64,000 nucleotides of DNA. It comes from an uncultured Bacteroidales bacterium (lineage in GTDB: Bacteria; Bacteroidota; Bacteroidia; Bacteroidales; UBA932). Below are positions 9,760 to 35,353 of this stretch, piece after piece (position 1 is the first letter of the stretch; each line of letters opens with the position of its first letter). The stretch lies in contig ONEX01000002.1 in assembly GCA_900316955.1 (NCBI GenBank), positions 124,001 to 188,000 on the forward strand, given 5' to 3'. Made by a program: the position numbers and the translations under genes. The notes under the pieces are model-generated. The model saw only the letters and a list, made by a program, of their open reading frames with translations, did no database searches and had not been told where the DNA came from.

Positions 9760-10593
9760 ATGAAGCGACTGACTCTTTTTTTCGCCCTGCTCGCGGTGAG
9801 CACGGCCCTTTTTGCCCAAGGAAAGGTAACCACCCGGAAACACCTGTTCTCCGACTTCTCCGACAAGATCACGAAGGTCGTGATGAGCGGGAACGAGATA
9901 CTGGACGGCGCGCTGCGCCAGGAGGTGGTGGACCTGTGGACCGCCTCCCCCTTCGAGTTCTGCTCGATGGCCGAGTACGAGTCCCTCAAGAAATCGGACA
10001 CCTACTATTTCCTCCTCATGACGGCCGGCCAGGCCAAGGGCGAGGAAGAGCCCATGGTCCGTTTCCTGACGCTGGAGAAGGGCGGGGCTGACAAGGGTGA
10101 CAACGTCGCCCTCCGGACCGAGGTCATCTCCCTGCCCCTGTGCCCCGTGGAGGGCGGTTCCGGGCGGGAACTCGTGTTCCTCCCGGCCCTCGTGAAGGGC
10201 ATCCAGGAGTTCACGGCAGAGGCCATGGACTCCGAGAAGGTCGCCTACTCCGGCATGACCTGGTTCAACGGACACTTCGACAAGAAAGGCGCGATCAAGC
10301 GCATCTACCTCGCCAAGGAGGACATCTCCGAGTCCGTCTCCACGAAGGAACGTGAAAAGTACATGGACGAGGACATCATCCTCTGCGACGAGGACGAGGC
10401 CGACAAGGCCTACACCGACAAGACCTACAACACGCTGGTCAGCTACACCGTCTCCGCCGGCACCTGGAGCTACAAGATGCTCATCGAGGCCGATACGGAC
10501 ACCGTCTATTACATCCGCAAGCACAAGGTCACTGCGAAGAACGCCCCCGGCTTCCTCACGGACGACCTCAAACGGATCTCAAGGAAGCGGTAA
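9760..10593 (+). CDS. Secreted/periplasmic protein of unknown function
   Basis: The start is at ATG 9760 (MKRLTLFFALLAVSTALFAQ, a clean signal peptide cut after AQ) or the in-frame ATG at 9754; starts further upstream fall on the promoter. The mature part is about 255 residues, rich in charged residues, with no lipobox or transmembrane segment. It has phrases such as SDKITKVVMSGNEILDGALR, MTWFNGHFDKKGAIKRIYLA and YYIRKHKVT. No family is recognised. The stop overlaps the next start (TAATG), so it is translationally coupled to the M16 peptidase gene, which suggests a joint role. Confidence 0.8.
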   Translation: MKRLTLFFALLAVSTALFAQGKVTTRKHLFSDFSDKITKVVMSGNEILDGALRQEVVDLWTASPFEFCSMAEYESLKKSDTYYFLLMTAGQAKGEEEPMVRFLTLEKGGADKGDNVALRTEVISLPLCPVEGGSGRELVFLPALVKGIQEFTAEAMDSEKVAYSGMTWFNGHFDKKGAIKRIYLAKEDISESVSTKEREKYMDEDIILCDEDEADKAYTDKTYNTLVSYTVSAGTWSYKMLIEADTDTVYYIRKHKVTAKNAPGFLTDDLKRISRKR

Positions 10594-11855
10594 TGCGGAG
10601 CGGAACGGCACCCTGCGGACTCCGGTACGCCGTCCGGCGCGGCGGGTCCGCTGTCGGTTACTGCGCCCTGAGCATGCGCTGCGGGACGCGGGACGAGGAC
10701 GGATTCGGCAACGGCATCGCCCATTTCGCGGAGCATACGATGTTCCGCGGGACGGCGCGCAAGAGCGCTTCCGTCATCAACAGTTACTTGGACCGCCTGG
10801 GCGGCGAACTCAACGCCTATACCACCAAGGAGGAGATCGTCCTGCACGCCACCGTGCTGAAGGAGGACCTCGGGAAGGCCGCCGGCCTGCTCTTCGAGCT
10901 GGCGACGGAGGCCACCTTCCCCGACGCCGAGATCGAGACCGAGCGGGGCGTCGTCTTGGACGAGATCATCTCCTACAAGGACAATCCGGTCGAGGACGTG
11001 TACGACAAGTTCGAAGGCATGCTCTTCGAGGGACATCCCCTGGGCCTGCCCATCCTAGGCACCTCCGCGTCCGTCCGCCGCATCAAGCCGGCGGACCTCC
11101 GCCGCTTCGCCCGCACCTTCTTCATTCCCGCCCGCATGGCCTTCACGGTCGTCGCGGACCTGGATGAAAAAGTGATGGAAAAACGGGTGCTGAGGCTGGT
11201 GGAGAAGCTGTTCGGAGAGATCCCCGGTCAAGCCGGGGATGACGCAAAGAATAACCGGGAGCTCCTGAATGCTCCCGTCATTCCCGGCTCGACCGGGAAT
11301 CTGCCCTTCGACAAGACCGTGGACAAGCGGAACCATGAGGTGAACGCCGTCATCGGCAACCGGGCGCCGTCGCTGTACGACAGCGAGGACCGCATCACGG
11401 CCGCCGTGCTGTGCAACATCCTCGGCGGGCCGGCGTCGAACTCCCTACTGAACAAGGTCCTGCGCGAAAAGAACGGCTGGGTGTACGGCGTGGAGTGCAC
11501 CTACACGCAGTATGCCGACACCGGCATCGCCGCCATCACCTTCGGCTGCGACAAGCCCAACCTGGAACGGTGCCTGTCGACACTGGACAAGATTCTCGCG
11601 CGCATCCGCGAGGTCCCGCTCTCCGAGCGCACCCTGAAGGCTTACAAGAAGCAGCTCCTCGGGCAGCTCGCCATCTCCTCCGACAACGGTGAGGCGCAGT
11701 GCCTGTCCATGGGCAAGAGCCTCCTCGCCTGGGGCCGCATCGACACCAGCGCCGAAATGCGCGCCCGCATCGAAGCCGTCACCCCGGCCGCCCTGCAGGC
11801 CATGGCCCGGCGCCTCTTCGATCCGGAGACCCTCTCCCGGCTGATTTACCTGTAA
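10593..11855 (+). CDS. M16-family zinc metallopeptidase (insulinase/processing-peptidase type) with palindrome insertions
   Basis: This 420-residue protein has the inverted zinc motif HFAEH near residue 44 with the downstream Glu in ETERGVVLDEI. The N-terminal M16 half is followed by the inactive C-terminal half (IGNRAPSLYDSEDRITAAVL, then NGWVYGVECTYTQYADTG). No signal peptide is seen, so a cytoplasmic role is likely. Between the halves, residues about 209-237 read EIPGQAGDDAKNN and VIPGSTGNLPF and are translated from two GC-rich palindromes (11220-11244, 11277-11303). That segment is unlike the family and is probably inserted repeat sequence kept in frame. Start by TAATG overlap with the upstream gene. 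Confidence 0.9.
   Translation: MRSGTAPCGLRYAVRRGGSAVGYCALSMRCGTRDEDGFGNGIAHFAEHTMFRGTARKSASVINSYLDRLGGELNAYTTKEEIVLHATVLKEDLGKAAGLLFELATEATFPDAEIETERGVVLDEIISYKDNPVEDVYDKFEGMLFEGHPLGLPILGTSASVRRIKPADLRRFARTFFIPARMAFTVVADLDEKVMEKRVLRLVEKLFGEIPGQAGDDAKNNRELLNAPVIPGSTGNLPFDKTVDKRNHEVNAVIGNRAPSLYDSEDRITAAVLCNILGGPASNSLLNKVLREKNGWVYGVECTYTQYADTGIAAITFGCDKPNLERCLSTLDKILARIREVPLSERTLKAYKKQLLGQLAISSDNGEAQCLSMGKSLLAWGRIDTSAEMRARIEAVTPAALQAMARRLFDPETLSRLIYL
11220..11303. repeat. Two covarying palindromes inside the M16 peptidase gene
   Basis: TCCCCGG-TCAAG-CCGGGGA followed by TGACG (from 11220) and GTCA-TTCCCGG-CTCGA-CCGGGAA-TCT (from 11277) are the same element in opposite orientations. Stem arms differ (TCCCCGG versus TTCCCGG) but each is matched by its own partner. 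Both are read in frame. Confidence 0.75.
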
Positions 11856-11875
11856 TCGCTCCCCCAGGACGATAA

Positions 11876-11965
11876 AAACTGCTGATGGTGGTCCAGTCAC
11901 GGGACCACCATCAGCAGTTTACCCCTGTTTTTGCCGACGGTGGTCCAGCCGTTGGACCACCATCG
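11876..11965. terminator. Tandem hairpins between convergent genes, with shared arm sequence
   Basis: A perfect 19-bp stem (11876-11894 with 11902-11920, loop 7 nt) ends in AAACTG/CAGTTT and could terminate both converging transcripts. A second 13-bp stem (11935-11947 with 11953-11965, one G-T pair) repeats the inner arm GGTGGTCC/GGACCACC. The two hairpins are therefore related copies, not independent terminators. Confidence 0.7.
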
Positions 11966-11972
11966 ACACAGG

Positions 11973-12842
11973 CTATTTGTTCAGATTGATGAACGGCAGG
12001 GCGCTGGAGCCGTTGAACTGCGGGAGTTCGCCGTTCCACTTCTCGATGGCGTACTGCTGGACGAGGAGGGCGTTCAGGGAGGCGGCGACCACGCGGTTGT
12101 AGTAGGCCTCGCCGTCGCCCGTGATCTTCTGCGCCTCGGCCTCACCCTTGGCCTTCGCGATGGCGATCTTCGCCTCGGCTTCGGCCTCTTTCACCTTGTT
12201 CTCGGCCTTGAGGGCGTTCTGGACGGCCTCGTTCTTGGCGTTGATGGCTTCGGTCAATGAAGCCGGCGGGTCGATCTTCGTCGTGAACTCGCGGACGATG
12301 AAGCCTTCGGCGTTCATGGACTCGTCCAGACGCGCGCGGACCTCGGTCTCGAACTTGGCGCGGTTCGCCATCAGCTCGTCGGACGTGTAATTGTTCGCGC
12401 AGGTGCGGTAGGCCTCGAAGATACAGGTGTTGATGTAGCCCATCTCCAGTTCGCGGACCGGCTTGCGGTATTTGACGAAAATGTCCACAGCCTTGTTCTC
12501 GTCGATCTGATAGGCGAGGGTCGGGGTCATGGAGAAGATGGCCGCGTCCTTGGGGTTCACCGTGAAGGGTTCATAGGTAACCCGCTGGATATAAGTCGGA
12601 TACTCGAAGATGCTCTCGGTGATGGGGTTGTACCACACCCAGCCGCGGCAGGTGCCTTCCACACCGCCGCGAAGCTCCGCGTTGGAAGACCATTTCTTGA
12701 ACTTGATGCCCACGGCCGCCGAGTCGATGGTCGTGCAGCAGGAGGCCATCACGATGATGGTGAGGATGGTGACGCCAAGGGAAATCCAGGTGGCCTTTCC
12801 GATGGAGAACTTGTGGGGCTTGATGGTTTTCGTTGCTTGCAT
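11973..12842 (-). CDS. SPFH/band-7 (prohibitin-like) membrane-anchored protein
   Basis: This 289-residue protein has one N-terminal hydrophobic anchor (ISLGVTILTIIVMASC, residues about 21-36) and an SPFH domain (TTIDSAAVGIKFKKW, then YPTYIQRVTYEPF) to about residue 200. A long Ala/Glu/Lys-rich helix follows (NALKAENKVKEAEAEAKIAIA), typical of stomatin/prohibitin oligomerisation. It is likely a scaffold on the inner membrane with the C-terminal part folded as a ring. It lies 18 nt downstream of metG. Family membership is clear, precise role not. Confidence 0.9.
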   Translation of the reverse strand: MQATKTIKPHKFSIGKATWISLGVTILTIIVMASCCTTIDSAAVGIKFKKWSSNAELRGGVEGTCRGWVWYNPITESIFEYPTYIQRVTYEPFTVNPKDAAIFSMTPTLAYQIDENKAVDIFVKYRKPVRELEMGYINTCIFEAYRTCANNYTSDELMANRAKFETEVRARLDESMNAEGFIVREFTTKIDPPASLTEAINAKNEAVQNALKAENKVKEAEAEAKIAIAKAKGEAEAQKITGDGEAYYNRVVAASLNALLVQQYAIEKWNGELPQFNGSSALPFINLNK

Positions 12843-12860
12843 ATCGGGGAGTATTTGTGT

Positions 12861-15080
12861 TTATCCAATCTGGGCGCCGTTGGCGACGACTTCCTGCGGG
12901 GTGATGAAGCGCATCTTGCCGTCGCCCTGCTTGGCCATCAGGATCATGCCCTTGGACTCGATGCCGCGGATGGTGCGGGGGGCGAGGTTCGCGAGGATGC
13001 AGATCTGCTTGCCCAGCATGTCCTCCGGGCTGTAGTATTCGGCGATGCCGGAGACGATCGTGCGGGTGTCGATGCCCGTGTCGATGGTGAGCTTCAGGAG
13101 CTTGTCGGTCTTGGGGACGCGCTCGGCCGCGAGGACCGTGGCCGTGCGGATGTCCATCGCGCCGAACTGGTCGAAGGTCACCTCGGGCTTCTGCGGCTCG
13201 ACCTTCTTCGCGGCCTCCTCGGCGGCCTTGGCGGCCTCGGCCGCTTCGCGCTCGGCCTTGATGGCCGCGAGGCGGGCAATCTGCGCGTCCACGACGCTGT
13301 CCTCGATCTTCTGGAACAGCAGGACGCTCTCGCCGAGGGCGTGGCCGGCGGGCAGGAGCTCGGGCGTGCCCAGCATCGACCAGGACAGGACGATAGATTC
13401 CCGATCGGGGTCGGGAATGACGCCGTTTTCCGTCATGCCCGGCTTGACCGGGCATCCCTTGGTATGCAGGGCCTTGCCCTCGCCCGGCTTGTAGAAGTTC
13501 ACGGTCGGGGCGCCTTCGCCGGCGCGGTGGTCGGTGCCGGCGTCGATGCCCACGCGGAGGATGTCGCGGAGCTTGCCCGCGCTGAACGGGGTGAAGGGCT
13601 CGAAGGCGATGGCGAGATCGGCGCAGATCTGCAGGCAGGTGTACAGGATGGAGGCGGTGCGGTCCATGTCGGTCTTCGCCACCTTCCAGGGCTCCATGTC
13701 GGAGATGTACTTGTTGCCGATGCGGGCGATGTTCATCGCCTCCTTCAGGGCCTCGCGGAAGTGGAAGGTCTCCACATACTTCTCCAGGGCCTCCTTGCAG
13801 GGGACGATGGAGGCGAGCGTCTCGGCGTCGATGGGCTCCGGCTTCAGGTTCTCCGGAACGACACCGTTGAAAAACTTGTGCGTGAGGACGACGGCGCGGT
13901 TCACGAAGTTGCCGAACACGGCGACGAGCTCCGAGTTGTTGCGCTGCTGGAAGTCCTTCCAGGTGAAGTCGTTGTCCTTGGTTTCCGGGGCGTTCGCCGT
14001 GAGGACATACCGCAGGACGTCCTCCTGGCCCGGGAACTGCTCCTCGTACTCATGGACCCAGACGGCCCAGTTGCGGGAGGTGGAGATCTTGTCGCCCTCG
14101 AGGTTCAGGAACTCGTTGGCGGGGACGTTCTCCGGGAGAACGAAGTCGCCGTAGGCCTTGAGCATGGACGGGAACACGATGCAGTGGAACACGATGTTGT
14201 CCTTGCCGATGAAGTGCACGAGACGGGTCTCCGGATCCTTCCACCACTTCTCCCAGCTCTGAGGGAGGAGTTCCTTGGTGTTGGAGATATAGCCGATGGG
14301 CGCGTCGAACCAGACATAGAGGACCTTGCCCTCGGCGCCTTCCACGGGCACCGGGACACCCCAGTCCAGGTCGCGGCTCACGGCGCGGGGCTGCAGGCCG
14401 CCGTCCAGCCAGCTCTTGCACTGGCCGTACACGTTCGTCTTCCATTCCTTGTGCTGCTCCAGGATCCAGTCGCGGAGCCAGGGCTCGTACTGGTCCAGCG
14501 GGAGATACCAGTGCTTGGTCTTCACCTTCTTGGGCGTGGAGCCGGACAGGGCGGAGCGCGGGTCGATCAGTTCCTCCGGGCTCAGCGTGGAGCCGCATTT
14601 CTCGCACTGGTCGCCGTAGGCGCCGGGATTGCCGCACTTGGGGCAGGTGCCCACGATGTAGCGGTCCGCGAGGAAGGTCTTCGCTTCCTCGTCATAGTAC
14701 TGTTCTGTCTCCTTCGTGATGAACTTGCCCTCGTCGTACAGCTTCCGGAAGAACTCGGATGCGGTCTTGTCATGGACCTCCGAGGTCGTGCGGGAGTAGA
14801 TGTCGAAGTTGATGCCGAGGCCGGTGAAGGCGTCCTTCATCACCTGGTGGTACTTGTCCACGATGTCCTGCGGGGTGACGCCCTGGGCGCGCGCCTTGAT
14901 GGTGATGGGCACGCCGTGCTCGTCGGAGCCGCACACGAAGACGACGTCCTCGCCCCGCATGCGGAGGTAGCGGACATAGATGTCGCCGGGGATGTAGGCA
15001 CCGGCCAGGTGGCCGATATGGACAGGACCGTTCGCGTACGGAAGGGCGCAGGTCACGAGGGTTCTCTTGTGGTCGTTCAT
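12861..15080 (-). CDS. metG: Methionyl-tRNA synthetase with C-terminal tRNA-binding domain
   Basis: The ATG at 15080 ([18 protein letters not shown]) overlaps the dnaG stop (ATGA). The 739-residue enzyme charges tRNA-Met. It shows the HIGH motif as HIGHLAG near residue 22 and a zinc knuckle (CPKCG and CEKCGS, near 145-165). The KMSKS-like motif reads KISTS near residue 336, a known Bacteroidota variant. An anticodon-binding helical domain and a C-terminal EMAP/Trbp111-like domain ([20 protein letters not shown] to the end) follow. Between about residues 526 and 555 lies a non-family segment ([19 protein letters not shown]) translated from two palindromes. Confidence 0.95.
13395..13458. repeat. 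Two covarying palindromes inside metG
   Basis: ATTCCCGA-TCGGGG-TCGGGAAT followed by GACG (from about 13396) and CGTCAT-GCCCGG-CTTGA-CCGGGC-ATC (from 13431) are inverted relative to each other. They match the elements in the M16 peptidase and hydF genes. The second has stem GCCCGG/CCGGGC, so both arms changed together relative to the TTCCCGG version. Confidence 0.75.
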
Positions 15081-17053
15081 TTCAATCTTCCGAGTTTGAT
15101 ATTGATTTTTTTCTTGAGTTCGTTGATGCGCTCCAGCGTGGTGAAGATCTCGCGCTGCCGGTCGGGACCGGCCGTGGCGAGCTCCCGCGTCAGGACCGCC
15201 TGGTCCGCCTGGAGCCGCTTGATGTGATAGGCCAGGATGGCCTTGGGGACGAAGTTCGTCAGCCAGGACTCCCGGGTGGTCAGGGCCGCCTGGAAGTTCT
15301 TGACCGTGAGTTCGTACTTGTCGTCGGAGAGCTGGGAGGCGACGAAGCGGACGGCGTCGTCGGCCCCGTTCAGGAGGTCGCGGATGATCTCGTCCTGCCC
15401 CTTGCCGGCTTCGTACAGGGCGAAATACGCCTCGTAGGTGCGCTGGTAGGCATCGTTCGCGAAATCGATCCCGTCGCCGGCGAGGGCCGTGTCGATGAAC
15501 TCGGCCACGGTCTGCGGGGTCTCCGAATAGAATTCCGAGTCGCTCTCGAACGTGAGCGGGGTGCTGCCGTCCCGGAGGATGAAGCCCAGGAGCTCGCGCT
15601 CGGACGGGGCCAGGAGCGGGCTCTGCGTCTCCAGGGCGCGGAGTTCGTTCACCGGGGGCGTATAGGTCGATTCCTGTGGCCGGGGTGCCTCTTCCTCGCG
15701 GCGGGCGCGCACAGCTTCGCGCTGCGCCTGCGTCCGCTCCTCCCCCTGGATCTTCTCCCGGGTGCGGCGGATGCGGTCCGTGAGGATGTCCGCGTCGATG
15801 TGGAACTTCGCGGAAATGGCGTCGGTATAGACCGACCGCTTCACCGCGTCGGGGATGCCGGCGACGGTGTCCGCGATGTCGTTGATGAGGTTCGCCCGCT
15901 TGAGCGGATCGTCCCCCGCCTCGCCCAGCAGGAGGTCCGCCTTGAAGGCGATGAAGTCCTGCTCGTTCGCGGCGATGAAGGCCTCTACTTCCTCCAGCGT
16001 ATGCTTCCGGGCGTAGGAGTCCGGGTCGTCGCCGTCGGGGATGAGGACCACCTTCACGTTCATGCCTTCCTTCAGGATCAGGTCGATGCCCCGGAGGGCG
16101 GCGTGGATGCCGGCCGAGTCGCCGTCGTACATGATGGTGACGTTCTCGGTGAACCGCTTGATGAGGCGGATCTGCTCCACGGTGAGGGAGGTGCCGCTGG
16201 AGGCCACGACGTTCGTGATGCCCAGCTGGTGCATGGACAGGACATCCAGGTAGCCTTCCACGAGGTAGCACTTGTCCGCGCGGGAAATCGCGGACTTGGC
16301 GAAATAGATGCCATACAGGGAGCGGGATTTCACGTAGATTTCCGACTCCTTGGAATTCACGTACTTGGCGATGGACTTGTCGGTGAACAGGGTGCGTCCG
16401 CCGAAGGCGATGACGCGGCCGCTCACCGAATGGATCGGGAACATCACCCGGTCGTAGAAGCGGTCGTGCAGGGAGCCGTCCGTGTCCCACTGGGCGCAGA
16501 GGCCCGTTTCCAGCAGGTATTCGTCCTTGTAGCCCTCCTTCTTCGCCGCTTCCGTGAACGCGCTCTTGGACTTCGGGGCCCATCCCAGGCCGTACTTGGC
16601 GATGGTCTCGTCCTCGAGGCCGCGGGAATGGAAATACTGGACGGCGACGGAGCGGCCTTCGTCCGTCGCAAGCTGGTCCTTGTAGAAGTTGAAGGCGAAC
16701 TCCGAGACGGCGAGGAGGCTCTCGTTGCGCTGGCGCGCGGCGATGTCCTCGGCCGATTCCTCCTTCTCCTTCACCTCGATATGGTACTTGCGGGCCAGGT
16801 ACTTGAGGGCCTCCGTATAGGAGAGCTTCTCGTACTCCATGATAAAGCCCACGGCCGTGCCGGACTTGCCGCAGCCGAAGCACTTGTAGATGCCGCGGGA
16901 AGGCTCCACGTGGAAGGACGGCGTTTTCTCATTGTGGAACGGGCAGCAGGCCCACAGGCTGCTCCCGCGGCGCTTCAGCGTCACGAAATCGCCCACCACG
17001 TCTTCGACGCGGGCCGTGTCCAGAATGAGTTGTACCGTCTCCTGCGGGATCAT
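15077..17053 (-). CDS. dnaG: DNA primase
   Basis: This 658-residue replicative primase has an N-terminal zinc finger ([14 protein letters not shown], then [10 protein letters not shown]), the RNA-polymerase-like domain and a TOPRIM fold. The TOPRIM Glu lies in [14 protein letters not shown] and the DxD in MYDGDSAG. After about residue 430 the C-terminal helicase-interaction region is more variable, with an Arg/Glu-rich linker ([18 protein letters not shown]). It overlaps metG by 3 nt on the same strand and follows a small membrane protein gene with a 3-nt gap. Confidence 0.95.
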
Positions 17054-17056
17054 GTC

Positions 17057-17359
17057 CTATTCTTTCTCGAAATCCACTTCCTTGGCGCCGGACAGGTCCG
17101 TCACCTGGATCTTGCCGTCATCCACGATCGGGGTGTCATCCGCGCGCCGGGCCTCGGAAGGGCGCTCCACGTCGCGCCGGGATTCTTTCGTCTGCCCCAG
17201 CTGCCTGATCCGTAACGAGAAGTCCCGACCGTACCAGAGGAGGGCCAGGACGCCGATGACGGCGCCCAGGAAACGGCCTTTCACGATCAGGAAAAGGGCC
17301 ACCAGGATGAATAGAAGGTCCTTGCCCAGGGTAAGGAGGATCTGTTGTTTCTGCGTCAT
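17057..17359 (-). CDS. Small membrane protein of unknown function
   Basis: The ATG at 17359 gives 100 residues; the frame's earlier start would fall in the divergent promoter. A hydrophobic stretch at about residues 13-45 (LLFILVALFLIVKGRFLGAV, then IGVLALLWYG) forms one or two membrane passes. A charged cytoplasmic tail follows (QTKESRRDVERPSEARRADD), ending DFEKE. It sits directly upstream of dnaG and is likely cotranscribed. No known family is recognised. Confidence 0.75.
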   Translation of the reverse strand: MTQKQQILLTLGKDLLFILVALFLIVKGRFLGAVIGVLALLWYGRDFSLRIRQLGQTKESRRDVERPSEARRADDTPIVDDGKIQVTDLSGAKEVDFEKE

Positions 17360-17380
17360 GTTTTCTCGCTCAGTTATAAC

Positions 17381-17411
17381 TTGCAAATATACGAAATCTT
17401 CCCTACTTTTG
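17381..17411. promoter_or_regulatory. Divergent promoters: hydG (plus) and the small membrane protein/dnaG/metG operon (minus)
   Basis: Plus strand: TTGC at 17381-17384, then TACTTTTG at 17404-17411 (19-nt spacing), 22 nt before the hydG ATG. Minus strand: CAAATATA at 17384-17391 reads TATATTTG, 24 nt upstream of the membrane-protein ATG. The two elements overlap, so the promoters may interfere. Confidence 0.6.
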
Positions 17412-17433
17412 TGTTCCAAATTCAGTTTTGATC

Positions 17434-18846
17434 ATGTATAACCCCAAGTCCGCCCACGCCGAGGAGTTCATCGACCACCAGGAAGTGCTCGATACCCTCG
17501 AGGAAGCCGCCCGAGAAAGTGGCAATCACCAGCGTGTGCTTGAAATCCTGGAGAAGGCCGCCCTCTGCAAGGGCCTGACCCACCGGGAAGCCGCCATCCT
17601 GATGGACTGCAACGAACCCGGACTGGAAGAGAAGATCTATTCCCTCGCCGCGTCGATCAAGCACCGTTTCTACGGCAACCGGATCGTCCTTTTCGCCCCC
17701 CTGTATCTGTCCAATTACTGCATCAACGGATGCACATACTGCCCTTACCACGCCAAGAACCGCACGATTCCCCGCCGGAAGCTTTCCCAGCAGGAGATCG
17801 AGGAGGAAGTCCGCGCGCTGATCCGCATCGGACACAAGCGCCTCGCGGTCGAGGCCGGCGAGGACCCGCGCCACAATCCGCTGGAATACATCATCGACAG
17901 CATCAAGACCATCTACAGCGTCCGCGAAGGCGGGAACAGCATCCGCCGCGTCAATGTCAACATTGCCGCGACGGACGTGGACTCCTACCGCAAGCTGCAC
18001 GAAGCCGGCATCGGCACGTACATCCTGTTCCAGGAAACGTACAACAAGGAAAACTACCAGCGCCTGCACCCCACCGGCCCCAAGAGCAACTACGAGTGGC
18101 ACACCGAGGCGATGGACCGCGCGCAGGAAGGCGGCTGCGACGACGTGGGCATCGGCGTCCTGTTCGGGCTCAGCAGCTACCGCTACGAGCTCGTGGGCCT
18201 GCTGATGCACGCCGAGCACCTCGAGGCCCGCTGGGGCGTCGGCCCGCACACCATCAGCGTCCCGCGCATCTGCCCGGCCGACGACATTTCCGTGAGTGAC
18301 TTCGACGCCCTCCCGGATGCGATCTTCCACAAGCTGGTCGCCGTCCTCCGCATCGCGGTCCCCTACACCGGCATGATCGTCTCCACCCGCGAATCCCAGC
18401 GCATGCGGGAGCAGCTCCTGAACTGCGGCATCTCGCAGATCAGCGGCGGCTCGCGCACCAGCGTCGGCGGTTACACGACCGAGGAGCGGCATGACGAGAC
18501 CGCGCAGTTCGACGTCTCCGACACCCGTCCGCTGGACGAGGTGGTCCGCTGGCTCCTGGAGCAGGACCACATCCCGTCCTTCTGCACCGCCTGCTACCGC
18601 GAAGGCCGCACCGGCGACCGCTTCATGTCCCTGTGCAAGAGCGGCAAGATCACCTACTGCTGCACGCCGAACGCCCTGATGACCCTGAAGGAATACCTGA
18701 TGGACTACGCCTCCCCCGCCACCCGCGAAGAAGGCGAACGGATGATCGCGAAGAGCCTGACGGACATCCCCGAAGGCCGCATCCGCGAGATCGCCATCGA
18801 ACGGCTGAAGCGCATCGAGAACGGCGAACGCGACTTCCGCTTCTAA
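17434..18846 (+). CDS. hydG: [FeFe]-hydrogenase maturase HydG (tyrosine lyase, radical SAM)
   Basis: The ATG at 17434 gives MYNPKSAHAEEF and 470 residues; the TTG two codons earlier is less likely. HydG cleaves tyrosine to supply CO and CN ligands of the H-cluster. The radical-SAM CX3CX2C motif is C96-INGC-TYC103. The C-terminal cluster motif is CTACYREGRTGDR with CCTPNALMTL downstream. Family segments include LAVEAGEDPRHNPLEYI and YILFQETYNKENYQRLHP. It is followed after 1 nt by hydF; the structural hydrogenase genes lie on the opposite strand at 25.8-30.3 kb. Confidence 0.97.
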   Translation: MYNPKSAHAEEFIDHQEVLDTLEEAARESGNHQRVLEILEKAALCKGLTHREAAILMDCNEPGLEEKIYSLAASIKHRFYGNRIVLFAPLYLSNYCINGCTYCPYHAKNRTIPRRKLSQQEIEEEVRALIRIGHKRLAVEAGEDPRHNPLEYIIDSIKTIYSVREGGNSIRRVNVNIAATDVDSYRKLHEAGIGTYILFQETYNKENYQRLHPTGPKSNYEWHTEAMDRAQEGGCDDVGIGVLFGLSSYRYELVGLLMHAEHLEARWGVGPHTISVPRICPADDISVSDFDALPDAIFHKLVAVLRIAVPYTGMIVSTRESQRMREQLLNCGISQISGGSRTSVGGYTTEERHDETAQFDVSDTRPLDEVVRWLLEQDHIPSFCTACYREGRTGDRFMSLCKSGKITYCCTPNALMTLKEYLMDYASPATREEGERMIAKSLTDIPEGRIREIAIERLKRIENGERDFRF

Positions 18847-18847
18847 C

Positions 18848-20065
18848 ATGGACCGGCTGCAAATCGCTTTCTTCGGGGCGACGAACAGCGGCAAATCCAC
18901 GCTGGTGAACGCCCTGGCGGGACAGGAAGTCTCGCTGGTGAGCGAATTGCCCGGCACGACCACGGACCCGGTCCGGAAAGCCATCGAGCTTCCGGGACTG
19001 GGTCCCTGCGTTCTGGTCGATACCGCCGGCTACGGCGACCCCGGCGCCCTGGGCGCCGAGCGCGAACGCCGCAGCCGCGCCACCATCGACGCCACCGACA
19101 TCGCCGTATTGTTGCGCTCCGGCCACCCCGAAGACGACCGCTGGCTCCAGCTCCTCCGCACGGCCCAAATCCCCGTCGTCGAAGTCCCCGGCCGCTCCCT
19201 CATCCCGGACCACTCCCTCATCCCGGACTTGATCCGGGATCTCCACGAACCCCTCACGGCCCCGAACTCCCTCATCCCGGACTTGATCCGGGATCTCCAG
19301 GCCGCGCGCCCCGACGACAAACCCCGCCTCCTCACCGGCGGCCTCGTCGGCAAGGACGACGTCGTCGTCCTCGTGATGCCGCAGGACAGCGAGGCCCCGA
19401 AAGGCCGCCTCATCCTCCCGCAGGTCCAGGTCCTCCGCGAGCTCCTCGACCTCGGCTGCATCCCCGTCTGCTGCCAGCCGGAAGGCCTCCAGCGCGCCCT
19501 GGACGGCCTCAGTGCCCCGCCGGCCCTGACGATCACCGACTCCCAGGCCTTCGCCAAGGTCAATGCCATCCTCCCGGCGGATGCTCCCCTCACGAGCTTC
19601 TCCATCCTCCTCGCCGGCGCCAAAGGCGACATACGCACCTTCGTGGAAAGCGCCAAGGCCATCGACACCCTGAAGCCCGGCGACCGCGTCCTCATCGCCG
19701 AAGCCTGCACGCACGTCCCTGATACTGAAGATATTGGCCGCGTAAAGATTCCGAATCTCCTCCGCAAGAAGGTCGAGATGGCCGGTCAGGCCGGCCATGA
19801 CGCAGTCGTCACTCCCGGCTTGACTCCAGCCGTCACTCCCGGCTTGACCGGGAGTCTGCTCGTCGACATCGCCGCCGGCAACGACTTCCCCGACGACCTC
19901 ACCCCCTACCGCCTCATCATCCAGTGCGGCGGCTGCGTCGCCAGCGAGCGCCTCCTCCGCTCCCGCATCAAAAAGGCACTCCTCGCCGGAGTGCCCATCA
20001 CCAATTACGGCATCGCCCTCGCCGCCCTCACCGGCATCCTGAACCGGGTGGTCATCCCCGGTTAG
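18848..20065 (+). CDS. hydF: [FeFe]-hydrogenase maturation GTPase/scaffold HydF, G4 region replaced by repeats
   Basis: This 405-residue protein should assemble and deliver the diiron subcluster to apo-HydA. P-loop GATNSGKST is at residues 10-18, with switch GTTTDPVRK and G3 DTAGYGD. The cluster domain has EACTHVPDTEDIGRVKIP and IIQCGGCV near the C-terminus; Gln replaces the usual His before CGGC. Where HydF proteins have the G4 NKxD motif and following loop, this protein reads VVEVPGRSLIPDHSLIPDLI and then a second SLIPDLIRDL. These are repeat-encoded peptides, so NKxD and the G5 loop appear missing. A second insertion (AGQAGHDAVVTPGLTPAVTP) precedes AAGNDFPDD. Reading frame is intact. Confidence 0.93.
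   Translation: MDRLQIAFFGATNSGKSTLVNALAGQEVSLVSELPGTTTDPVRKAIELPGLGPCVLVDTAGYGDPGALGAERERRSRATIDATDIAVLLRSGHPEDDRWLQLLRTAQIPVVEVPGRSLIPDHSLIPDLIRDLHEPLTAPNSLIPDLIRDLQAARPDDKPRLLTGGLVGKDDVVVLVMPQDSEAPKGRLILPQVQVLRELLDLGCIPVCCQPEGLQRALDGLSAPPALTITDSQAFAKVNAILPADAPLTSFSILLAGAKGDIRTFVESAKAIDTLKPGDRVLIAEACTHVPDTEDIGRVKIPNLLRKKVEMAGQAGHDAVVTPGLTPAVTPGLTGSLLVDIAAGNDFPDDLTPYRLIIQCGGCVASERLLRSRIKKALLAGVPITNYGIALAALTGILNRVVIPG
19195..19298. repeat. Palindrome cluster at the GTPase G4 position of hydF
   Basis: A half element (CCTCATCCCGGAC, 19196-19209) precedes a full element at 19216-19244 and an almost identical one at 19269-19298, each reading CTCA-TCCCGGA-CTTGA-TCCGGGA-TCTCC. The copies are direct repeats about 53 nt apart and encode SLIPDLIRDL twice. 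Confidence 0.8.
19775..19857. repeat. Palindrome cluster near the 3' end of hydF
   Basis: GAGA-TGGCCGG-TCAGG-CCGGCCA-TGACG (19775-19803) is an inverted copy. A half element CGTCACTCCCGGCTTGAC (19807-19824) and a full element CGTCA-CTCCCGG-CTTGA-CCGGGAG-TCT (19831-19857) follow. The three stems differ in arm sequence but remain self-complementary. Confidence 0.8.
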
Positions 20066-34296: not shown

Positions 34297-35184
34297 TCAA
34301 AGAAGCTGGTCCAAGACGGAAGGATCGATGCCCAGTAAGCGTGCAATCTGCTTTTTGGGACTGGCGAAGCGCCGGGCGAGGGTACGGGCGAGCCACAGCA
34401 AGTTTTTCCGATCCAACTGGTGATAGGATTCCATGTGGAGTTCATTCGCGCAAACAGCCTTTATCTTCTCCTGCATCTCAGCATCGGTAAAGGTCAACTG
34501 TTCTTCGATGCCATGCGCCTGCTCCACGACAGATTCCAAATCAAACCGTCTCAGCCGGTCAAAAAAGTCAAGGCTGCTTCCGATCTTCTGCTCCACTGTC
34601 CGGTAGTCCACAAAACACTTGTTCAAGATGCGTCCATCGAAATGTTCCCATTCCGCCGGTATCTTGACATGCGTCCCGAACATCCGCTTCACCGCCTTCG
34701 ATCCCGGCAATGGAGAGCCGTGCAGTAAGGGAAGATAAGGGTTGAAGTAACATTCGAACGGAGACCAGGGATATGAATAAGGGCTGCCGATGCGAGCCTT
34801 ATAACTGTTCCGGAGCAAGTAACATACCTCATTCAAGAGCATGTTCCTGTCCACGACCGCCTGCACATCGGAAGCCTGGAGTTTCAGGATGCCGGACACA
34901 CCATATTTCAATTCCAGCATCCTGGCAATCCGATGCAGGACCCAGGCGAAAAATGCAAGGCAATCGGCATACTTTCCCGTCAGCAGAAGGTGGATATGGT
35001 TATCCATCAAGGCATAGCACAGGACCTTGACCGGATATTTCAAGGTGGCGAGCGCAATCGTATTGGAGCCCTGCACAAAGTCTGCGTCATCACGGAACAG
35101 CAGCGAACGCTCCAAATGGTCCGTCGTGAACAGATAGATTCCTTTTCTTCCCGTGAAGGGGTCTTTGAACTCACTGATTCTCAT
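34297..35184 (-). CDS. REP-associated tyrosine transposase (RAYT, Y1/IS200-like)
   Basis: The ATG at 35184 gives MRISEFKDPFTGRKGIYLFT and 295 residues; a longer frame would start in a flanking palindrome. The HUH motif is DNHIHLLLTG (H63, H65). The probable catalytic Tyr is Y122 in CYLLRNSYKARIG, the place of Y-x3-NP in characterised RAYTs. A basic helix-turn-helix-like C-terminus ends it (ARRFASPKKQIARLLGIDPS). RAYTs are single-copy proteins that cut and move REP-like palindromes as single strands. Palindromic units lie on both sides (34115-34293, 35203-35353) and at two further intergenic sites, as expected. It has no inverted-repeat insertion-sequence ends of its own. Confidence 0.85.
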   Translation of the reverse strand: MRISEFKDPFTGRKGIYLFTTDHLERSLLFRDDADFVQGSNTIALATLKYPVKVLCYALMDNHIHLLLTGKYADCLAFFAWVLHRIARMLELKYGVSGILKLQASDVQAVVDRNMLLNEVCYLLRNSYKARIGSPYSYPWSPFECYFNPYLPLLHGSPLPGSKAVKRMFGTHVKIPAEWEHFDGRILNKCFVDYRTVEQKIGSSLDFFDRLRRFDLESVVEQAHGIEEQLTFTDAEMQEKIKAVCANELHMESYHQLDRKNLLWLARTLARRFASPKKQIARLLGIDPSVLDQLL

Positions 35185-35202
35185 CTCTTTTTTTCGACAT
35201 AA

Positions 35203-35353
35203 GGTTTGGCACCAATCCTTACATAAAACACTTATTTTCAACAAGTTGAGAGTTCTATGGTTCCAATCCTCACTTTGAAAGAATAGGTTGGGAACCAGGA
35301 TATGAGTAACAGTTTGTATATTATATAGTTACATAGGAAATGGTTCCCAACCT
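35203..35353. repeat. REP-like palindromes upstream of the RAYT gene
   Basis: A perfect 13-bp pair, AGGTTGGGAACCA (35285-35297) and TGGTTCCCAACCT (35341-35353), encloses 43 nt of AT-rich sequence including GAGTAACAGTTTGTATATTA. A weaker unit precedes it: GGTTTGGCACCAATCC (35203-35218) facing GGTTCCAATCC (35259-35269) around ACACTTATTTTCAACAAGTT. These units lie between the transposase start and the HTH gene. Confidence 0.75.

Follow-up and report, generated by a model that had tools for sequence, protein, structure and literature searches.

Hairpins inside three genes of the window

The window analysed here is a stretch of 64,000 nucleotides from an uncultured Bacteroidales bacterium (contig ONEX01000002.1, positions 124,001 to 188,000). 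Three of its genes, encoding an M16 peptidase, methionyl-tRNA synthetase (metG) and a hydrogenase maturase (hydF), contain copies of a short hairpin that lie in the reading frame. Palindromic elements inside genes are best known from Rickettsia. A covariance model (R1), run with filters off, gives eight strong matches in the window, with E-values between 3.3e-13 and 2.3e-7. R1 was trained on a set that contains six of the eight (L015 among them), which match by construction; a scan for perfect stems, which is independent of the model, finds five copies in the window, compared with four hits in total across 20 block shuffles. All eight copies, 27 to 28 nt long, are inside the three genes. Six form head-to-head dimers, one dimer per gene, and the other two are a tandem pair in hydF. 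The host genes and copies are as follows.

10593..11855, plus strand: M16 peptidase, host gene (open reading frame (ORF) list, Pfam)
11218..11244, minus strand: CGTC-type hairpin, first half of the M16 dimer, reads EIPGQAGDDA
11276..11302, plus strand: CGTC-type hairpin, second half of the M16 dimer, reads PVIPGSTGNL
12861..15080, minus strand: metG, methionyl-tRNA synthetase, host gene (Pfam, relatives)
13395..13422, minus strand: hairpin of the 28-nt form, with a 6-nt loop lacking TGA, one half of the metG dimer
13431..13457, plus strand: CGTC-type hairpin, other half of the metG dimer, reads GCPVKPGMT
18848..20065, plus strand: hydF, hydrogenase maturase, host gene (Pfam, relatives in the PDB)
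19216..19242, plus strand: CCTC-tagged hairpin, first of the hydF tandem pair, reads SLIPDLIRDL
19270..19296, plus strand: CCTC-tagged hairpin, second of the hydF tandem pair, reads SLIPDLIRDL
19776..19802, minus strand: CGTC-type hairpin, first half of the hydF dimer, reads EMAGQAGHDA
19831..19857, plus strand: CGTC-type hairpin, second half of the hydF dimer, reads AVTPGLTGSL

Each copy in the window has CGTC or CCTC at one end and CT (CC once) at the other; between them are the two arms of an 8-bp stem, separated by a loop such as CTTGA. An earlier, sequence-only reading of the window had described palindromes inside genes, in frame, with arms matched within each copy and in both orientations; the covariance search and the gene calls bear this out. 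The repetition that it reported is real, with eight copies rather than the six that it counted. No Rfam family was found in the window at gathering scores. The closest named relatives of the metG product are from metagenome-assembled genomes (MAGs) of rumen Bacteroidales, at 92 and 91% protein identity, and Candidatus Cryptobacteroides intestinigallinarum is further off at 77%.

Architecture and abundance of the element

The genome to which the window belongs (G000; 3.13 Mb in 38 contigs) has at least 138 matches to the covariance model, a lower bound obtained with 150 of 2,907 candidates scored. A consensus with up to three mismatches matches the genome 88 times, while the reversed pattern does not match at all. 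When the window and 75 stretches around the matches outside it were searched again, 145 matches were obtained, of which 144 copies were classified; the partial match L128:7827 (22 nt) is excluded from all counts of these copies. The unpaired head is CGTC, TGTC or CCTC in nearly all copies, and AGTC, CATC, CTTC or CGGC in a few. The stem is 8 bp long and starts with AT in nearly all copies (AC in few), the loop has 5 nt in 123 copies and 6 nt in 21, and the tail nearly always begins with CT. Genome-wide there are 26 head-to-head dimers, two tail-to-tail dimers and 77 singles, and in none of the 26 head-to-head dimers are the two stems identical. Stem pairing reaches 98.6% in our alignment A2, whose rows were chosen, so that it makes a weak test of covariation.

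Among 101 sampled genomes of the genus, 66 have copies. Restriction of the element to this genus is ruled out by matches at E <= 1e-4 in 43 of 393 Bacteroidales genomes.

Position relative to genes

With genes called by a home-made codon-model gene finder, 81 of the 144 copies are genic, 46 are intergenic and 17 lie at gene edges; counted by cluster, 54 of 109 are genic. The sequence-only reading had seen no copy between genes, which holds in the window, but exclusive gene residence is ruled out by the genome count, where 63 of 144 copies are intergenic or at edges. Because genes cover 87% of the stretches searched, genic copies are below the expectation for random placement, yet they are far above what the name REP (repetitive extragenic palindrome) implies.

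Nor are the remaining copies random with respect to genes, since 32 of the 55 non-genic clusters start between -5 and +15 nt from a stop codon. These 32 comprise 20 singles with the tail towards the stop, eight singles in the reverse orientation and four dimers, and in eight of the clusters the element's own AG completes a TAG stop. For 18 of the 55 non-genic clusters there is no gene 3' end within 60 nt.

Genic copies amount to 0 of 15 in G058 and 3 of 21 in G400, genomes from two other Bacteroidales families with the element, although the gene finder may under-call genes in both (coding fraction 0.60 and 0.65). A stop-to-stop check supports the count for G058, where 14 of 15 copies have no open frame over 113 aa; the count for G400 is less certain, as 9 of its 21 copies are in open frames of at least 204 aa. 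Because these genomes have few or no genic copies, gene residence seems to be a trait of the present lineage and not of the element itself. The host genes include ones of the dihydrofolate reductase (folA), SufE, shikimate kinase, MurB, DapF, AtpG, IspG, UvrA, MetH, RecN-like and TruA types, and 4 of 48 host proteins have no Pfam match.

The copies found in genes differ in form from the others. The 28-nt form, whose 6-nt loop lacks TGA, is genic in 20 of 21 cases, compared with 61 of 123 for the 27-nt form (p = 6e-5), and dimers are genic more often than singles (22 of 26 against 28 of 77; p = 2e-5). Among 27-nt copies in genes, the counts for the four frames that are always open are 31, 17, 7 and 5, with one copy in another frame, a preference that favours peptides such as EIPGQAGND and VIPGLTGNL. 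Survivor bias can be sufficient for this fit to coding, with no need for a benefit to the host.

In-frame insertion and empty sites

Three sister genomes, whose DNA identity to the window region is 95-96% (G003), 92% (G088) and 89% (G093), were used for comparison at orthologous sites. Matches to pieces of 50 genic sites beyond the window were looked for in the three sisters, and each sister gave 43; among 127 ortholog pairs, 120 could be anchored by their flanks and seven were left out. In every one of the 120 anchored pairs the length difference is a multiple of three (non-zero in 103), and none has a stop codon between the anchors.

In the window, the dimer in hydF is a 72-nt insertion that adds 24 residues, and both the insertion and its peptide are lacking in all 31 orthologues compared (G088, G093 and 29 HydF proteins from elsewhere in the order, one of them from the same genus). 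Because the 31 orthologues run through this position without a gap, the dimer does not sit in a variable linker. The Pfam tetramerisation domain of HydF is split into two stretches, the second of which begins directly after the insert, and on a solved HydF (5lad) the insert maps to the interval from residue 320 to residue 328. The insert in AtpG separates two stretches that align with a solved gamma subunit. At the metG site 13431..13457 there is no copy in G088 or G093, both of which are 45 nt shorter there, and site 54 is filled in one genome only, with no earlier copy. In the clearest insertions, inspected by eye, between a few bases and about two dozen have been replaced, and no target duplication was seen. 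The in-frame peptides from genic copies are predicted to be translated additions to the host proteins.

The tandem site in hydF at 19270..19296 holds a variant copy in G088 and a decayed or look-alike stretch in G093. Around this site (window 19190-19300), a stretch with an NKSD-like motif that is present in most other Bacteroidales HydF proteins shown has been lost from HydF of the window, G088 and G093; in the window and G088 the hairpin-encoded peptide occupies its place. Elsewhere in the genome, at L151:2503-2530, a GDP-mannose dehydratase gene carries an element that is lacking in G003 and G088, while G000 and the more distant G093 are identical over the 77 nt shown, reflecting either transfer between species or MAG contamination.

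Turnover at orthologous sites

Variant swaps were counted between anchors, with three ambiguous cases excluded, over 51 one-to-one pairs of orthologous elements. The stems are the same in 35 pairs and different in 16. In 12 of the 16 (nine sites) the two arms are altered at matching positions and pair perfectly in each genome; three pairs are altered on one arm only and one is mixed. The unpaired head also differs in 11 of the 12 pairs. In a looser count by position, which has 21 two-sided changes, we estimate that one or two of these would be expected if the arms changed independently, at about 6% divergence per arm. The sequence-only reading had taken the variation of the arms for compensatory change: the matching of both arms in each copy stands, but joint change of arms and head makes replacement of the whole element likelier than stepwise compensation.

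Two further comparisons concern the identity of the element that occupies a site. Among 391 loci fetched, which cover the sister genomes in part, the exact CCTC-ATTCCGGG copy is confined to those of G000, a sign of recency; it is present at sites 2, 31, 35, 43, 98 and 100, where a sister holds another variant. A different hairpin family (TGTCATTTCGAGC... and similar) occupies the same interval in 10 of 46 cases in G088, 2 of 42 in G003 and 0 of 39 in G093 (12 of 127); at the M16 site 11276..11302, too, G088 has a piece of a different hairpin family. Across the genus, the metG loop of the relatives shown holds inserts of many kinds, several of them recognisably palindromic, and the loop block is lacking in the five relatives shown from outside the genus. 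Elements that are shared between genomes diverge less than their flanks (7.1% against 9.7%, or 5.1% against 9.2% without the newest subfamily). The variant swaps and family exchanges are most economically read as one element taking the place of another where an element is tolerated, and the ends that the elements share (GTCAT...ATCT) could enable such exchange.

Longer palindromes of about 70-110 nt, with long matched outer arms and in some cases a core like CTCCGCGTYGCTTCGCRACCC, are seen in frame in the same loops: at L031, L032, L035 and L038 (M16 gene), at L050 (metG), and at sites 35 and 44 in G088 and G093. They are further gene-resident hairpin families of this genus. In five relatives (L037, L039, L050, L051 and L052) two overlapping ORFs make up the M16 peptidase, with the break at the loop in which other species have palindromes. 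At L176:2503-2760 (site 93), tandem half-hairpins have multiplied in the linker of an HU-domain protein, slippage-like and in numbers that vary between species. By eye, the window also has two similar imperfect repeats, each with an inverted repeat of its own, 3' of the M16 stop codon (11885-11965).

A candidate mobiliser

Among the genes examined, none beside the repeats encodes a transposase. The window does contain, more than 14 kb from its nearest clear CGTC copy, the following gene.

34297..35244, minus strand: REP-associated tyrosine transposase-like (RAYT-like) protein, candidate mobiliser family (NCBIfam NF047646, 26 bits, below the cut-off of 80)

This is one of seven matches to the RAYT-like family in the genome. 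The HUH and tyrosine motifs of these proteins, which we take to be those of the family, look intact. Across the genus, elements are present in 64 of the 85 genomes that have the RAYT-like family and in 2 of the 16 that do not (p = 3e-6, uncorrected for phylogeny and completeness); put the other way, the family is found in 64 of 66 genomes with elements and 21 of 35 without. Copy numbers of the two are correlated (Spearman 0.42). In G089, a 122-aa ORF of the Y1 type has a copy about 165 bp away. On this comparative evidence, the best candidate for the mobiliser is a family of RAYT-like HUH proteins that would act in trans, though it is tentative and we would sooner bet against it than for it. 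A bolder version, in which fixed docking loops in essential proteins of the genus would have palindromic families swapped in frame by a trans-acting RAYT-like HUH protein, the missing mobiliser of the CGTC REPs, we consider improbable.

Origin of the gene-resident hairpins

We propose, with a probability of about 0.68, that the copies are non-autonomous mobile palindromes of the CGTC superfamily of REPs, closest to CGTC-2, that multiply in a Cryptobacteroides-like rumen bacterium. New copies would be made from a folded single strand and inserted at gene ends or in coding sequence, replacing a few target bases in the clearest cases. Within genes only in-frame, stop-free survivors would persist, with enrichment of heterodimers and of the TGA-free 28-nt form. 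Existing copies would act as acceptors and be overwritten by newer subfamilies, so that both arms and the head would change together. The sequence-only reading is supported in part.

Several observations weigh against this proposal. The mobilising enzyme is unproven, with host recombination at hairpins as the alternative to a RAYT-like protein, and the association between the RAYT-like family and the element is subject to the lack of correction mentioned above. No full-length RAYT-like or Y1 gene that we examined is closely flanked by CGTC copies. Of four RAYT-like regions in G000, only one has any match, a 22-nt partial match at 1.6 kb and a weak one (E 0.0025) at 1.3 kb; for three genomes that each have a single L200-type match, the nearest among the listed copies is at 1.9 kb in one, at 7 kb in another, and absent from that contig in the third. 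G014, with 24 copies at 70% completeness, has no match to a mobiliser candidate of either kind searched. To our knowledge, no transposition chemistry would replace a few bases and leave the target unduplicated. The looser count by position, with its 21 two-sided and 11 one-sided changes in the stems, leaves compensatory mutation some room, and the stem scans require 7 of 8 pairs, so broken hairpins are missed. Finally, at the hydF tandem site G093 encodes a similar peptide, VVPDLLRSL, without a clean hairpin, in DNA that is identical to the G088 copy at 21 of 27 positions (counted by eye), which makes insertion at that site ambiguous.

Some observations agree with spread and homogenisation by host processes only, with no transposase involved, for instance through template switching at hairpins or ectopic gene conversion over short tracts between existing copies. 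The absence of a closely linked mobiliser gene, the concerted alteration of arms at old sites, the slippage-like tandem half copies at site 93 and the small number of bases replaced in the clearest cases are in its favour. What they explain poorly is the filling, in one genome only, of sites that had no earlier copy (site 54, HydF), the preferred place of non-genic copies beside stop codons, 20 of these 32 clusters being singles with the tail towards the stop, which suggests targeted insertion, and the tracking of element presence by the RAYT-like family. We regard host processes alone as an unlikely explanation. Selection for an RNA or DNA function, for example in mRNA stability or termination, with the arms covarying by compensatory mutation, would account for the high pairing of stems in the chosen set, for the lower divergence of shared elements relative to their flanks and for the 3'-end copies that adjoin stop codons; since many sites have no copy, or differ, in genomes that are 4-11% apart, the functions of the host genes are unrelated, and head and both arms differ at once between variants, we think it very improbable. 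Chance or convergent peptides that near palindromes happen to encode, for which the similar G093 peptide at one hydF site might be cited, are extremely improbable for the family as a whole in view of the reversed-pattern control (0 against 88 matches), the dozens of near-identical copies and the insertions lacking in orthologues.

If the copies are mobile palindromes as proposed, sister genomes 4-11% apart allow their arrival, frame filtering, variant swapping and family exchange to be read at orthologous codons. Both the passage of selfish DNA into protein sequence and the existence of a mobiliser for CGTC REPs become testable questions.

Comparison with known systems

The CGTC superfamily of REPs was published in 2013 by Di Nocera et al. 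(PMC3733652). According to that paper, it takes in the Rickettsia palindromic elements RPE-4 and RPE-6, has Bacteroidetes among its phyla and includes intragenic copies; its members have a stem of 8-9 bp starting with AT, a loop of 4-5 nt and a short tail that is mostly CCA, and no transposase is known for them there. The resemblance to Rickettsia elements seen by the sequence-only reading gains substance, with RPE-4 and RPE-6 filed in the superfamily that the copies fit.

With CGTC-2 REPs as described in that paper, our elements share the CGTC tag with TGTC and CCTC variants, the 8-bp stem starting with AT, the 5-nt loop (in 123 of 144 copies), dimers that are mostly head-to-head and heterodimeric with tail-to-tail ones rare, some intragenic units, and, in the genes examined here, the lack of an adjoining transposase gene (PMC3733652). 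Set against the same description, the present elements differ in a tail that starts with CT and not CCA, in the 28-nt form with its 6-nt loop, which is almost only genic, in the genic position of about half of the copies and in the site-by-site replacement that is visible. From REPs in the strict, extragenic sense they are set apart by the 81 genic copies of 144 (0 of 15 in G058, 3 of 21 in G400).

Like RPE-4 and RPE-6, they are short palindromes in frame in many unrelated protein-coding genes. Their putative kinship with RPE-4 and RPE-6 follows the placement of these two by Di Nocera et al. Unlike them, they belong to a genus of rumen Bacteroidales, are often dimers, and have sisters at distances small enough for empty, swapped and re-used sites to be seen. 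With GTAG REPs and their RAYTs they have in common short hairpins, dimers, a position at gene 3' ends and HUH tyrosine proteins in the genome; unlike GTAG REPs, their tag is CGTC, and the RAYT-like genes are not flanked by the repeats and score under the RAYT family cut-off.

A literature search among open-licence papers in PMC found no report of the phenomenon in Cryptobacteroides or Bacteroidales, nor of site-by-site exchange. The element is thus of a known kind, the CGTC superfamily, in a gene-resident mode; what is new are the in-frame length differences from sister genomes, the 24-residue HydF insertion that 31 of 31 orthologues lack, the turnover at sites, the exchange between hairpin families and a form with a TGA-free loop that is nearly all genic.

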